In this document: piece by piece, positions 8,635 to 36,794 of the stretch
How positions within the stretch are numbered: position 1 is the first letter of the stretch
Layout: each line of letters starts with the position of its first letter
Assembly: GCF_900115675.1 (NCBI RefSeq)
Contig: NZ_FOXI01000007.1
Location: 1-64,000 of the forward strand
From: Halolamina pelagica
Lineage (GTDB): Archaea > Halobacteriota > Halobacteria > Halobacteriales > Haloferacaceae
Direction of reading: 5' to 3'
Length of the DNA stretch: 64,000 bases
Position numbers and translations under genes: made by a program
Notes under the pieces: model-generated
The model's database searches: none
Told to the model about the DNA's origin: nothing
What the model saw: the letters and a program-made list of their open reading frames with translations, nothing else

Positions 8635-8697
8635 TGACATCCTCCTCGCCGTGAACGGCGAGGCTTCCCCTACGAGGGGAATCCAGCTTGGCAGGTT
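8635..8697 (-). ncRNA. Putative omega-RNA 3' end of the inner element
   Basis: On the minus strand, directly after the tnpB stop, there are two hairpins: CCCCTCGTAGGGG and CCTCGCCG-TTCA-CGGCGAGG, ending GGATGTCA. In the IS200/IS605 family this right-end RNA (overlapping the tnpB 3' end) is the TnpB guide scaffold and the flanking bases act as guide. Its extent into the coding sequence cannot be seen from sequence alone. Confidence 0.55.
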
Positions 8698-9933
8698 TCA
8701 GTCCGAGTCGGCCGCGAGCCTCATCTGCGAGGATTTCTCGCTCGTCTCGCGGGGGACTGTGGCGCTGTCACAGGCGCTCCCGTCCCGAGGCGAGTCATCG
8801 CGTCCGGGTTCCCAACGGACGCTCTCTCCCCACGGGTTAGCGCGGCGGGCGATATTCGCCGCCGCGTTGATGTCTGCTTGGAACTCCGAGACGTGGCAGT
8901 CGTCGTGCGGACACACGAACTCCGCTTGCTCATCCCGCCGACCGAGACGGCCGCAAGCGTGGCACGTCTGCGAGGTGTACGCCGCGTTGACGTACTCGAC
9001 GCGAATCCCTGCCTCGGTCGCTTTGTCTTCGATGCGACCCTGCAAGCGGGCGAATGCCCAGTTGTGGAGGCGGCGATTCATCCACTTCCCGTAGTCGAGA
9101 TACTCGCGGATGTACGACAAGTCTTCGAGGACGATAACCGCGTCCTCGAACTGTCGGGCATATTCGACGGCCTCCCGAGACGCCTTCTCGACAATATCTG
9201 TCAGGGCGTTCTGGTAGTGCTCGAATCGTTCGTCAATCCGCCACTGGGCGGCGTCACGCTCTTGCAGTCGCTTGAGCGTGGTATGCATCTCTTTGCGAAG
9301 GTGTCGCGCTCGACTGCCGCTGACGAGCATCGGCTTCCGTGGCACGTCGCGTTTGAGGGCACAGCCCGTGATCAACGCGCTCTCGCCGACGTCGAAGCCG
9401 ATGTACGTCGGGTCGTCCGGCTCGGTCGGTTCTTCGACCGAGTATTCGACGGTGACGTGCAACTCCCACGACGTGCGGTGTCGCTGAAGGCGTAGTTCGC
9501 CCGCCGTCGCGTCGCCGTCAAGCAGGTCGAACCAGAGTGATTCCTGTTCGGGATTGATCTGAAGCGGAATCCAGAAGTTCGTCCCGCGACCGGGTTGCGG
9601 AACCTGCCAGACGAAGCCGTGGTCGCGCTCCGGCGAGTGGTCGAATGTGGCCGCTCGATTGACGAGCCGAGCTGGATGCTCGTCGTCCAACTCCTCGGCG
9701 TTGTACGTATCCCGAAGCTTCGGGACGTAGGACTTGAGCGCGTCCTTGGCCTGATACGGCAGGTGGTAGGGCGTCACGATGTCGTTGACGGCAGACATCG
9801 TGTTCGCCCCCGCGTCGAATGCGTCGTGGAGTGCGTCGCGGTAGGTGTCCAAGAGGCGCTGTAGGCGTTGCTCTTTGCCCGTGGTGGGCGTTGCGAGCGT
9901 GGCCTGTAGCGTCTTCGTCACCGTCTCGGACAC
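8698..9933 (-). CDS. tnpB: TnpB RNA-guided endonuclease (inner element)
   Basis: The product is 411 aa from a GTG at 9933. That start aligns residue for residue with the start of the other TnpB at 15105 (VSETVTKTLQATL against MTATTTKTLEATL); an ATG at 9960 would add nine residues. RuvC residues are intact: Asp in GFDVGESAL, Glu in IVLEDLSYIRE, Asp in QADINAAANIA. The zinc ribbon reads CHACGRLG ... CPHDDC. TnpB is an RNA-guided DNA nuclease that helps retain the IS. It shares most of its sequence with the 15105 copy, so the two are recent relatives. Confidence 0.92.
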   Translation of the reverse strand: MSETVTKTLQATLATPTTGKEQRLQRLLDTYRDALHDAFDAGANTMSAVNDIVTPYHLPYQAKDALKSYVPKLRDTYNAEELDDEHPARLVNRAATFDHSPERDHGFVWQVPQPGRGTNFWIPLQINPEQESLWFDLLDGDATAGELRLQRHRTSWELHVTVEYSVEEPTEPDDPTYIGFDVGESALITGCALKRDVPRKPMLVSGSRARHLRKEMHTTLKRLQERDAAQWRIDERFEHYQNALTDIVEKASREAVEYARQFEDAVIVLEDLSYIREYLDYGKWMNRRLHNWAFARLQGRIEDKATEAGIRVEYVNAAYTSQTCHACGRLGRRDEQAEFVCPHDDCHVSEFQADINAAANIARRANPWGESVRWEPGRDDSPRDGSACDSATVPRETSEKSSQMRLAADSD

Positions 9934-13317: not shown

Positions 13318-14710
13318 GACGGCGGTCTTTTTCACGGATCGACGACGACCTGTCGGCATGTCGCCCTCCACCGACGCCAGCGGCACCCCGGTCAGTCGCC
13401 GTGCTGCGCTCGCCACCGGCGTCGCCGCGGCCGCCGCGCTCGCCGGCTGTGCCGGCGTCGACGACATCCGCGACGCGATCAATCCCCGGACGTACGACAG
13501 CGACGCCGAACTCGGCGACCCGCCGGAGCCGTGGCCCACGCCGGGTCACGACGCGCTCCGGACCGGCTCCCGCGACACCGAGACGACGGTGTCGGAGGAC
13601 CCCGCCATCGAGCGTGTCGGCCCCGGCGGCGGCGACTTCTACGAGCGGGCGCCGATGGTCGATAGCCAGGCCGTCTACGCGCCGGTCTGGAAACAGGCCG
13701 AGCCGGAGTACGTCCGAGCGTTCGTCGCGACGGGCCGCGACGGCGAGGCTCGCTGGCGCCACGACTGGTCAGAGAGCAGCGGCGCCGCCGCGCCGACGCT
13801 CCACGGCGGGACGGCGTTCCTGACCCGGGCTGGGGGGGACGATGGCCGTCGATCGCCGGACCGGCGAGATCCGGTGGACGTCCGCCGCCGGAACCGTCCC
13901 GAGCACGCCGACGGCCGTCGGCGACCGCCTCTACCTCGGCGGGAAATCGCTGCTGGCCCTCGACGGGGCGACCGGCGAACGGCTGTGGACTGCTGACGCG
14001 GTCCCGGCCCACGCCGGCGAACTCGCGGCGACCGAAGACACCGTCGTCGCCGCCAGCGACGGCACGCTGTTCGCGATCGACGCCGCCGACGGCTCGGTTC
14101 GCTGGCAGGCCGACCTCGATCAAGGCTCCTACGTCAGCCCGGTCGTCGGCGAGGACGTGGTCGCGCTGATGGGCAGCGACGGGCTGCTGCAGGTCCGCGC
14201 GCGTGCCGACGGGGGCGAACGCTGGACCGTCCAGTTCGATCGCGCCGCACAGGCCCCGCCCGCGATCGCCGACGACGTCGTCTACGCCGTCGACGAGGAC
14301 CCCTACGCCTGCCGGGCCTACGACGCCGGTAGTGGCGAGGCGCTGTGGGACACGGATCTCGGCGTCGGGAGCGAGGACCGGCCCGCCGTGGATCCGGAGA
14401 CGGTGTACGTCGCGAACCAGGACACGCTCGACTGTCTCGACCGGGCGACCGGCGAGATCCGACGGCGGATCCCGCTGGACCTCGACACGTTCTCCCAGCA
14501 CGGCGTCGCGCTGGCCGACGACGCCGTGTTCCTGGTTGCCCAGCGCGACGGGGAGAGCGGCGTCTGTCTTGATTCAGCGAGAGAATCCCGCCGTTCACGG
14601 CGGGCGTGAATCGCGGAAGCTCGGTGCGACAGTCCACGTAGTTCTGCCGGCCGAATACCCAACGGCACAAGGATTATTGAGATTGGGTATCTTATATTTG
14701 GTGGGGCCAA

Positions 14711-15103
14711 ATGGAGTATCACCTGCAATCCGGGTCGCACACGGTCTACGCGCTCCAATACCACTTCGTGACCGTCACGAAGTACCGCGCCGACATCCTC
14801 ACTGATGAGCGGCTGGAGCGCGTGGCTGAAGTCGCTCACGAGATTGCAGAAGACTTCGAGGCCGACATCAAGAACGTGGACGGCGGCACCGACCACGTTC
14901 ACATCCTGTTCACGACCAGACCCACCACCGACCTCACCAAGTTCATCAACTCGCTCAAGGGCGTCACATCCCGCCGGATTCGGCAGGAGTACCCTGAGGT
15001 GAAACAGACGCTCGAAGATGCGTTCTGGCAACCGGGATATTTCCTCGCCACGACCGGTCAAGTGAGCATCGACGTGCTGATGGACTACGTGGAAAACCAG
15101 TAG
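14711..15103 (+). CDS. tnpA: IS200-type TnpA transposase (Y1 HUH)
   Basis: The 130-aa enzyme cuts and rejoins single-stranded DNA at the element ends. The HUH metal site is DHVHILF (His62, His64) and the nucleophilic tyrosine is most likely Tyr126 in MDYVENQ, in the usual C-terminal helix. Length and motif spacing match the family, so it should be active. One base separates it from tnpB. It is the only tnpA in the window and could act on the related ends of the tnpA-less copies. Confidence 0.96.
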   Translation: MEYHLQSGSHTVYALQYHFVTVTKYRADILTDERLERVAEVAHEIAEDFEADIKNVDGGTDHVHILFTTRPTTDLTKFINSLKGVTSRRIRQEYPEVKQTLEDAFWQPGYFLATTGQVSIDVLMDYVENQ

Positions 15104-15104
15104 C

Positions 15105-16361
15105 ATGACCGCGACAACCACGAAAACGCTGGAGGCCACGCTCGCCCCACCGACTACCCACAAAGAGCGCAAACTGTGCGACCTGCTCGACACTTACCGG
15201 GCAGGACTCCACGAGGCGTTCGAGGATGGGTGTAACACGATGACCGCCACCAGCGACGTGGTGACGCCCTACGACCTGCCGTACCAGGCGAAGGCGGCCC
15301 TGTGCAACTACGTCCCGCAACTGCACGGCACCTACGACGCCGAAGAGTTAGACGACGACCACCCGGTTCGGCTCACCAACCAAGCCGCCGAGTTCGACTA
15401 CTCGCCGGACCGCGACTACGAGTTTACGTGGTGGGTGCCACAGCCCGGTCGCGGGACGAACTTCTGGATACCACTCCGTATCAATCCCGCTCAAGAAGAA
15501 CTGTGGCACGACCTCGTGGACGGTGAGGCGTCGGCAGGCCAACTCCCCCTGCAACGCCACCGCACGTCGTGGACGCTTCACGTCACCGTCGAGTTTCCGG
15601 TCGAAGAACCGGACTACGAACCGACAGACGGCGATGTAACACCAGTCGGCTTCGACATTGGCGAAGCACACCTGCTCGCGGGCTGTGCCTGCGAGCAGGA
15701 CACTCCGACCGATCCACTTCTCATCACCGGTGGCCGCGCTCGGCACCTCCGCAAAGAGATGTACACGACGCTCAAACGACTTCAAGAGCGTGACGCCTCC
15801 CAGTGGCGGATTGACGAACGGTTCGACCACTACCAGAACGCACTCACGGACATCATCGAGAAGGCGTCTCGGCAGGCCGTCGAGTACGCCTGCCGGTTCG
15901 AGAAGCCTGTGGTCGTGCTGGAAGACCTCTCGTACATCCGCGAAGACCTCGATTACGGCGAGTGGATGAACCGACGCCTCCACGCATGGGCGTTCGCTCG
16001 CCTCCAACAACGTATCGAAGACAAAGCACGAGAGGCCGGGCTTCCGGTCGAATACATCCGCCCAGAGTATACGAGCCAGACGTGCCACGAGTGCGGCCAC
16101 GTCGGGTACCGGAACGGCGACGAGTTCCGGTGTACGAACGACGAGTGTTGGGTGTCGGAGTATCACGCAGACATCAACGCGGCGGTCAACATTGCTGACC
16201 GTCACGACCCGTGGGGTGAGAGCCTGCCGCTGAAACCGGCGGGCGATGACATTCCACGGGATGGGAGCGCCTGTGACAGCGCCGCGACCCCCACCGAGCA
16301 GAGCCAACCACGGCAGATGACGCTCGGCGAAGTCAGGTCGGAACCCTCTGCCGGTAGTTAG
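15105..16361 (+). CDS. tnpB: TnpB RNA-guided endonuclease (intact element)
   Basis: The 418-aa protein has all RuvC catalytic residues: Asp in GFDIGEAHLL, Glu in VVLEDLSYIRE and Asp in HADINAAVNIA. The zinc ribbon reads CHECGHVG ... CTNDEC. The conserved block RHLRKEM is shared with the copy at 8698-9933. It should act with an RNA from the right end to cut DNA carrying the TTGAT-type TAM. A short tail rich in Pro, Thr and Gln follows the catalytic part. Confidence 0.95.
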   Translation: MTATTTKTLEATLAPPTTHKERKLCDLLDTYRAGLHEAFEDGCNTMTATSDVVTPYDLPYQAKAALCNYVPQLHGTYDAEELDDDHPVRLTNQAAEFDYSPDRDYEFTWWVPQPGRGTNFWIPLRINPAQEELWHDLVDGEASAGQLPLQRHRTSWTLHVTVEFPVEEPDYEPTDGDVTPVGFDIGEAHLLAGCACEQDTPTDPLLITGGRARHLRKEMYTTLKRLQERDASQWRIDERFDHYQNALTDIIEKASRQAVEYACRFEKPVVVLEDLSYIREDLDYGEWMNRRLHAWAFARLQQRIEDKAREAGLPVEYIRPEYTSQTCHECGHVGYRNGDEFRCTNDECWVSEYHADINAAVNIADRHDPWGESLPLKPAGDDIPRDGSACDSAATPTEQSQPRQMTLGEVRSEPSAGS

Positions 16362-16412
16362 CCGGTATTCCCATGCAGGGAAGCCGCGCCGTTCACGGCG
16401 CGGAGGATGTCA
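16362..16412 (+). ncRNA. Putative omega-RNA 3' end of the intact element
   Basis: Directly after the tnpB stop come two hairpins, TTCCCATGCAGGGAA and CCGCGCCG-TTCA-CGGCGCGG, then GGATGTCA. This is the right-end structure that in TnpB systems is transcribed with the tnpB 3' end as guide RNA. The flank CCGAGTGGGCTGAGAC would be its current guide segment. Confidence 0.55.
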
Positions 16413-16436
16413 CCGAGTGGGCTGAGACGGCACTGA

Positions 16437-23451: not shown

Positions 23452-23479
23452 GGGGCCGGTCCGGCACCGGCTATCTTTC

Positions 23480-23845
23480 TTCGAGGAGAGAATCCCGCCG
23501 GTCACGGCGGGTGTGAATCTGACAACGCCTCCACAACCCACATTCACCATCAATACGGATATTTAACTGGGAACGTATCGTAGCATGACGTACACCGAGG
23601 CGGTCACGCCGCCCACTCAAATGTACAATATCGGGACTCCGAGGCCCAGAACGTTCGAGACACACTCTCGAACCGCTGTGGTGTCTCGGCTCAGATAACT
23701 CCGAGTCCCCTGCCGGGATAGGAGTAACGGCGGTGTGGCCCCGCCATCGGCCTGTCATGCCGACAGGCCGTAAACCAGTAAATATCCCAACCCAGCGGTG
23801 CGGTGCCGTGGGAAGCCTCGCCGTTTACGGCGAGGAGGAGGTCAC
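23480..23845 (+). mobile_element. Internally deleted IS200/IS605 element keeping both ends
   Basis: The left end (GAGGAGAGAATCCC with hairpin CCCGCC-ggtcac-GGCGGG, 23494-23511) resembles the left end at 14574. The right end (23725-23845) matches 1-121 with one difference and keeps all three hairpins intact. Only about 0.37 kb remains. Before the right end, one frame reads SEAQNVRDTLSNRCGVSAQI and stops at 23720, which looks like a TnpB C-terminal tail. A start codon at 23585 opens a 37-aa frame that crosses the deletion. No transposase is left, so it could move only with TnpA supplied in trans. Confidence 0.8.
23725..23845 (+). ncRNA. Orphan omega-RNA-like right end
   Basis: The segment keeps an 8-bp stem (CGGCCTGT/ACAGGCCG), a middle CCCAGCGG...CCGTGGG hairpin, a perfect terminal stem CCTCGCCG-TTTA-CGGCGAGG and the end GGAGGTCA. 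All pairs are intact, unlike the copy at 1-121. Related TnpB proteins in the window have different right ends, so which TnpB, if any, would use it is unknown. Confidence 0.5.
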
Positions 23846-35183: not shown

Positions 35184-36488
35184 TCACTGTTCCGCGAACA
35201 GTTCCTCGGCGTACGCCTGCGCGCGCTCCCGGATCGCGGCGGCGTCGACGCCGACGTGCTCGCCGCCCGCGTAGCGCACGCGGCCGTCGACCATCGTGAA
35301 CCGCACGTCGTCGCCGTGCGCCGCGAAGACGAGATGCGAGACGGGATCGTGGATCGGCGTCGCGCGCTCGGTGTCGGTGGTGAGCCCGACGACGTCGGCC
35401 TTCCAGCCCGCTCGGAGCGCGCCGACGCACTCGAAGCCCGCGGCGTCGGCGCCGTTGACCGTCGCCATCTCGAAGGCGGCCTCAGCGCTGATCGCGGTGG
35501 GGTCGGTCTCGCTGACCTTCCCCAGCAGGCTGGCCTGGCGCATCTCGGTGAACGCGTCGAGGGTGTTGTTGCAGGGCGGGCCGTCGTTGCCCAGCGCGAC
35601 GTTGATCCCCCGGCGCCGGTAGTCCTCGACGGGCGCGACGCCGGAGGCGAGCTTCATGTTCGAGGACGGGCAGTGGGTGACGTGGGTGCCAGTCTCCGCG
35701 AGCACCTCGCGCTCGGCCTCGTCGGTGTGGACGCAGTGGGCCAGCACCACGTCCTCCCCGGTCAGGCCCACCTCGTCGAGCCAGTGGACGTTGCGCATCC
35801 CGGTCTCGGACTCGACGGTCGCGATCTCGTCCTCGTTCTCGCTGGCGTGGGTGTGGATGACGACGCCGTCGTAGCGGTCCGCGAGGTCGCGGGCGCCGCG
35901 CAGGCACGCCTCGGTACAGGAGACCGCAAATCGGGGCGTGACGGCGTACTGGATCCGGCCGTTCGCGGTGTCGTGGTACTGCCGGATCAGCGCCTCGCTG
36001 TCCCGCAGCGCGCGCTCGGTGGGTTCCTCCAACCCGTCGGGGCAGTCCTTGTCCATCAGCACCTTCCCCATCCGGGCCCGGATCCCGCGCTCCCGGGCGG
36101 CCGCGAACGCCTCGCCGGCGTGGTGGACCGAGAGATGGTCGACGACGGTGGTCGTGCCGGAGGCCAGACACTCGAGGTAGCCGAGGTCGGCCGCGAGGCG
36201 CATCCCCTCGGCGTCGAGGTCGGCCTCCATCGGGAGGACGTAGTCGAACAGCCAGTCGAGCAGTTCCGCGTCGTCGGCGACGCCGCGCCCCAGCGACTGG
36301 ACGGAATGGACGTGCGCGCCGACGAGCCCGGGGGCGACGATGTCGAACTCGCGGCGCTCGTGGCCCGGGAACCGGTCGCGGAGGTCCGCGGCGGCCCCGA
36401 CGGCCTCGATGCGGTCGCCCGAGGTGACGACGGCGCCGTCCTCGAGGACCGTCCCGGCGTCGACGACGACGGTTCCGGTGAGCAGCAT
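35184..36488 (-). CDS. Amidohydrolase, MTA/SAH (5'-deoxyadenosine) deaminase-like
   Basis: The 434-aa metal-dependent hydrolase has GAHVHSVQS (HxH), VVIHTHASE, VLAHCVHTD and ALGNDGPPCNN, the ligand and catalytic set of the ATZ/TRZ-MtaD group. It probably deaminates 5'-deoxyadenosine, methylthioadenosine or S-adenosylhomocysteine. ATG at 36488 is used. A longer frame to 36584 would read straight through the IS scar at 36536-36576, so it is rejected. The scar sits 48 bases upstream and may affect its promoter. Confidence 0.88.
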   Translation of the reverse strand: MLLTGTVVVDAGTVLEDGAVVTSGDRIEAVGAAADLRDRFPGHERREFDIVAPGLVGAHVHSVQSLGRGVADDAELLDWLFDYVLPMEADLDAEGMRLAADLGYLECLASGTTTVVDHLSVHHAGEAFAAARERGIRARMGKVLMDKDCPDGLEEPTERALRDSEALIRQYHDTANGRIQYAVTPRFAVSCTEACLRGARDLADRYDGVVIHTHASENEDEIATVESETGMRNVHWLDEVGLTGEDVVLAHCVHTDEAEREVLAETGTHVTHCPSSNMKLASGVAPVEDYRRRGINVALGNDGPPCNNTLDAFTEMRQASLLGKVSETDPTAISAEAAFEMATVNGADAAGFECVGALRAGWKADVVGLTTDTERATPIHDPVSHLVFAAHGDDVRFTMVDGRVRYAGGEHVGVDAAAIRERAQAYAEELFAEQ

Positions 36489-36535
36489 CCCCTCCCTGGG
36501 AGGGCGTGCAGGATTAAGAGGGTGGCTATCTTGAT

Positions 36536-36576
36536 TCAGCGAGAGAATCCCGCCGTTCACGGCGCGGAGGATGTCA
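36536..36576 (+). mobile_element. 41-bp IS200/IS605 scar: left and right ends fused
   Basis: Preceded by TTGAT (36531-36535), the 41 bases equal 14574-14602 joined to 16401-16412 of the intact element, without a mismatch. The join falls in CGCCGTTCACGGCG, a 14-bp sequence present in both end hairpins of that element (14589-14602 and 16387-16400). So the element was lost by a deletion between its two end repeats, not by clean TnpA excision. Confidence 0.9.
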
Positions 36577-36599
36577 CGCCGCACCGCTTCCGCGGGCGC

Positions 36600-36794
36600 T
36601 CAGACCCCCAGCGCGTCCAGCAGATCGAACCCCCAGCCGAGGTGCGCCATCACGTAGTAGCCCACGTAGATCCCGACGATGGCGACGACACCCGGCAGCG
36701 CCGGCGGCGCCGGGATGGGGAGCCGGAGGAACGTGAACAGCGCACCGGTGATGATTCCGACCGCCAGCGCCGCGACGACGGCAGCGACGTTCAT
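36600..36794 (-). CDS. XapX-domain small membrane protein
   Basis: The 64-aa product has two hydrophobic segments and the XapX pattern GALFTFLRLPIPAPPALPG followed by VVAIVGIYVGY. XapX proteins are often near xanthine or transport genes, but the function is unknown. It is divergent from the cyclophilin gene with about 108 bases between starts. Confidence 0.85.
   Translation of the reverse strand: MNVAAVVAALAVGIITGALFTFLRLPIPAPPALPGVVAIVGIYVGYYVMAHLGWGFDLLDALGV

Follow-up and report, generated by a model that had tools for sequence, protein, structure and literature searches.

The 64,000-nucleotide stretch of Halolamina pelagica DNA analyzed here (the window) contains a short hairpin between two minus-strand genes, one encoding a 5'-deoxyadenosine deaminase-like amidohydrolase (35184 to 36488; NF005557 above cut-off, PF01979) and the other, on the far side of the hairpin, a XapX-domain protein (36600 to 36794; TIGR03510 above cut-off). 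The question raised by this locus is how a sequence resembling both ends of an insertion sequence (IS) came to stand here without the genes of one. A first-pass annotation had proposed that it is a scar of an IS200/IS605 element, left when its two end hairpins were joined to each other rather than by clean TnpA excision.

A single hairpin built from both ends of an IS

An intact parent-type IS200/IS605 element, delimited from its sequence, occupies positions 14568 to 16413 of the window on the plus strand. It carries a full-length tnpA for a Y1 transposase (14711 to 15103, plus strand; PF01797, E = 1e-40 over positions 1 to 121 of 121; NF033573 transpos_IS200 above cut-off) and a tnpB of the RNA-guided endonuclease family (15105 to 16361, plus strand; NF040570 guided_TnpB above cut-off, PF07282). 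Subterminal hairpins fold at both ends, and there are no terminal inverted repeats. The element shares 93% identity with a Halorientalis copy that is annotated as ISNph5 family and 87% with copies in Halobacterium salinarum. No other full-length copy of its subfamily is present in the genome; the full-length element closest to it is 72% identical. A repeat search placed the 14-mer CGCCGTTCACGGCG, longer than any other exact direct repeat in the IS region searched, in the cores of the left-end hairpin (14589 to 14602) and the right-end hairpin (16387 to 16400), both on the plus strand and 1798 bp apart.

The window also holds a second IS200/IS605 element (8635 to 9918, minus strand), which has a TnpB-type gene, is 74% identical to the intact IS and, over these coordinates, has a stop in the frame tried, and a noncoding PATE of about 370 bp (23471 to 23845), which follows CTAT and has both end hairpins. 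The genome also has left ends related to this PATE on contigs C23, C29, C30 and C33, and there is another right end near window position 95.

Compared with the intact IS, positions 36536 to 36576 equal 14574 to 14602 plus 16401 to 16412 with no mismatch, so that the proposed join between the end hairpins holds letter for letter, with the 14-bp repeat as the overlap. The left-end match covers 29 nt (36536 to 36564) plus 7 nt upstream to 36529, 36 nt in total, and the right-end match covers the 26 nt ending at 36576 plus 1 nt downstream to 36577, 27 nt in total. The two matches overlap in CGCCGTTCACGGCG (36551 to 36564), and because both copies of the repeat are identical, the join may lie anywhere inside these 14 bp. 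The product is a single palindrome joining the left and right IS ends, with the join in a direct repeat common to both end palindromes. On the plus strand, it consists of a left-end-derived part that includes the left hairpin foot GAATC (36530 to 36550, an exact match to 14568 to 14588), the common core placed by sequence comparison (36551 to 36564), and the right-end-derived part CGGAGGATGTCAC (36565 to 36577, an exact match to 16401 to 16413). The distance of 48 bp between the 41-mer (starting at 36536) and the deaminase start at 36488 is as first reported.

The 41-mer occurs once in the 3.16-Mb genome even when three mismatches are allowed, and the reversed-pattern control gave no match. 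A local MITE family, with its one copy at up to three mismatches, is ruled out by this count, which does not fully exclude a MITE for the class as a whole. A REP/RAYT system was likewise considered and rejected, as TnpA scores 34.9 bits against the NF047646 cut-off of 80 and the copy number of the hairpin is low (one in its own genome). The hairpin nevertheless resembles the REP sequences of RAYT transposases in being solitary and related to IS200/IS605-type ends; REPs are high-copy and have their own transposase, whereas here there is mostly one per genome with a match and the TnpA of the window belongs to the ordinary IS200 type.

Empty sites and the probable insertion target

The deaminase/XapX locus is present without the insert in all six congeners examined. 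In the alignment of these six, conservation of the native flank reaches as far as GRCTAT, with divergence directly beyond it. Since the flank ends at CTAT, we infer that CTAT (36526 to 36529, plus strand) was the insertion target and that the terminal-only, one-hairpin remnant extends from 36530 to 36576 or 36577 on the plus strand, 47 to 48 bp with an ambiguous last C. This redraws two features of the first-pass annotation: TTGAT, which had been taken as the target, belongs to the element, and the 41-bp scar beginning at 36536 was drawn too short. The same tetranucleotide precedes most other one-hairpin copies and MITE left ends, and it is rare in the window (28 occurrences vs 70 expected). 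About 41 bp separate the insertion from the deaminase start downstream of it, and a conserved ATTAAGAG stretch that, judging from the alignment, is probably the TATA region has been left intact.

Two further remnants in Natrinema versiforme occupy sites where a congener has no insert, and the one with a readable target follows CTAT. Together with the CTAT kept in the six empty sites, these remnant sites indicate that the element inserts on the 3' side of a short fixed target and does not duplicate it, although the intact copy follows CTGT; for this IS subfamily the probable target is corrected to CTAT. That intact copy, after CTGT (14564 to 14567) and not the usual CTAT, sits within a PQQ beta-propeller gene, in its 3' part.

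These comparisons bear on the possibility that the hairpin is a native functional structure, a terminator or regulatory site whose resemblance to IS ends is coincidental, as its position between two same-strand genes might suggest. Such a structure is missing from all six congeners, which rules out both a conserved native sequence at the locus and a native 41-mer in these species; the hairpin is also identical to the two IS ends over 36 and 27 nt, and an Rfam search of the window gave no match. We regard this explanation as scarcely credible. The comparison of relatives called for by the first-pass annotation thus yielded the unscarred site in six congeners, while a filled site was not found.

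Recurrence among haloarchaea

The suggestion that this is a regular outcome, for which a search of haloarchaeal genomes had been proposed, is borne out by a survey of 392 genomes of the order, one genome per species, in which one pattern and one tolerance were used throughout. One-hairpin remnants numbered 26, in 18 of the 392 genomes and 16 genera, and the reversed control gave none. The matched pattern found 160 left ends of two-hairpin elements in 82 genomes of the same survey, remnants making up about 1 in 7 of the ends counted (26 vs 160). Most genomes with a match carry one remnant, with a maximum of six per genome under the strict survey pattern. More one-hairpin forms were found in a family survey and on named haloarchaeal plasmids; viral contigs gave no match to a degenerate remnant pattern.

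No pair of filled and collapsed alleles at one locus was found in Natrinema or, for three remnant loci, on haloarchaeal plasmids, and at the sites of remnants compared with relatives (one genome per species) only empty alleles turned up. An IS in one Natrinema genome (G468), considered as the filled allele of a nearby remnant in another (G432), proved to be a separate insertion 87 bp away.

A rival account is that the one-hairpin form can itself move as a mini-element (a minimal PATE or REP-like unit), is mobilized in trans by TnpA, and was already collapsed when it inserted here. Two identical 50-mers at unlinked sites of one genome (G425), near-identical forms at unrelated sites in Halapricum, Halorubrum and Halorientalis, and six strain-specific ISHwa23 insertions in Haloquadratum, all of them terminal-only (PMC3119063), are compatible with such movement. 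In the cases checked (G425 and G432), however, the genome that holds the remnants also has left ends of identical sequence, so that matching full-length left ends were at hand there, and the remnant studied here is the single copy in its own genome. Its right hairpin foot is absent, and the pairing at the stem base, considered next, is not what selected hairpin recognition would lead one to expect. On balance, we consider this explanation improbable, if worth keeping in mind.

Stem-base pairing and core homology

In right-end hairpins the position at the stem base is paired in all 33 sequences (TA in 13, GC in 11 and CG in 9). In one-hairpin forms the pair is mismatched in 23 of 47, compared with 0 of 33 right ends (Fisher p = 4e-7), and the 5' side of the stem base is C in 42 of the 47, whatever the 3' base. 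Distinct sequences were counted, which need not all represent independent events, and the result is the same without two of the 47 forms that are doubtful members. The 5' arm is thus that of the left end and the 3' arm that of the right end, the pair having not been restored. The chimeric stems support a repeat-mediated deletion of the element's core, and the broken pair speaks against continuing selection as a transposase substrate, being broken in about half of the remnants and never in right ends. It also provides a simple test separating collapsed elements from intact ends.

If the repeats must match, elements with dissimilar hairpin cores should rarely collapse. In left ends with a GGCG core, the homology to the usual right ends is only about 8 bp, and no mixed-core remnants were seen for 23 such ends, vs 26 remnants for 160 matched-core ends (one-sided p = 0.04), a borderline test in which the 23 were counted by hand from a list mixing core types. 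Two remnants (G346 and G466) have GGCG-type or near-GGCG arms on both sides, as expected if cores must match. A need for matching repeats is, on this test, suggestive only.

Known systems and the proposed origin

Terminal-only forms of 52 bp, arising by repeat-mediated deletion between end palindromes, have been described in Haloquadratum walsbyi for the PATE HqIRS46 and the IS605-type ISHwa23 (Dyall-Smith et al. 2011, PMC3119063), and among the papers searched it was the only one in which "terminal-only" occurs alongside transposon and haloarchaea. The remnant is like those PATEs in consisting of one fused near-terminal palindrome left by deletion between end palindromes; the repeats are 22 and 19 bp there and 14 bp here, and the product is 52 bp there and 47 to 48 bp here (PMC3119063). 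HqIRS46 was seen as filled and collapsed alleles in two strains (PMC3119063), whereas the collapse here is deduced from empty sites and chimeric stems. The phenomenon has thus been known since 2011; what is new is its occurrence in another genus, in another IS subfamily (ISNph5-like) and repeatedly in many haloarchaea, by which a loss route known from one species is extended to many haloarchaeal genera.

We consider it highly probable that the remnant is an ISNph5-like IS200/IS605 insertion that collapsed by recombination of its 14-bp end-hairpin repeats, that is, a terminal-only PATE. The parent would be an ISNph5-like element with tnpA and tnpB, the same ends and the same gene order, compared with which the remnant has no genes and one hairpin. 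Such an element would have inserted 3' of a CTAT lying between the genes for the XapX protein and the deoxyadenosine deaminase. Recombination between the 14-bp direct repeats in its two end hairpins, by slippage, template switching or single-strand annealing, would then have deleted about 1.8 kb including both transposition genes, leaving one chimeric hairpin. The chimera, its presence at a site empty in relatives and its recurrence elsewhere are observed; the former presence of a full two-hairpin element at exactly this site, and the enzymology of the deletion, we infer.

An alternative route to the same product would be driven by TnpB, which would cut the empty site after TnpA excision, sister-chromosome copy-back then switching template between the hairpins (abortive gap repair). 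Haloarchaea are polyploid, which fits such a route, as do the TnpB of the RNA-guided family encoded by the parent-type element and the join exactly within the common hairpin core. Ordinary repeat-mediated deletion predicts the same product, and HqIRS46, a PATE with no transposase gene, has four such collapses (PMC3119063); since this transposase-less element collapses likewise, TnpB in cis is not needed. We therefore think a TnpB-driven collapse unlikely and favor ordinary recombination between the repeats.

The collapsed form retains the left cleavage site, the left hairpin foot and the right cleavage site and is without the right hairpin foot GAAGC. Because this foot is lost, the remnant is most likely immobile, by analogy with the IS608/ISDra2 mechanism as generally understood. 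Whether the short form can move was asked as early as 2011 (PMC3119063), and our data sharpen this into a testable question, namely whether an element with one hairpin is dead or can still be moved. That single-hairpin remnants are still mobilized in trans by an IS200/IS605 TnpA seems doubtful; if true, no smaller substrates of this transposase would be known, and REP-like repeats could plausibly have started from such remnants.

Variant arrangements of ends were also observed. Two left ends lie in tandem, 44 bp apart, at G363:C1:1178492-1178583, and at L004 (about position 165) a right end is directly followed by a left-end or one-hairpin form, which resembles an RE-LE junction or a tandem insertion. 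Remnants L204, L205 and L207, with CGGCGGGCGAGGA(T/C)GTCA, have a junction one base longer than the usual form. At L079 (near 1540) and L207 (1550 to 1552), the terminal TGTCA of the remnant provides the TGA stop of a gene running towards it.
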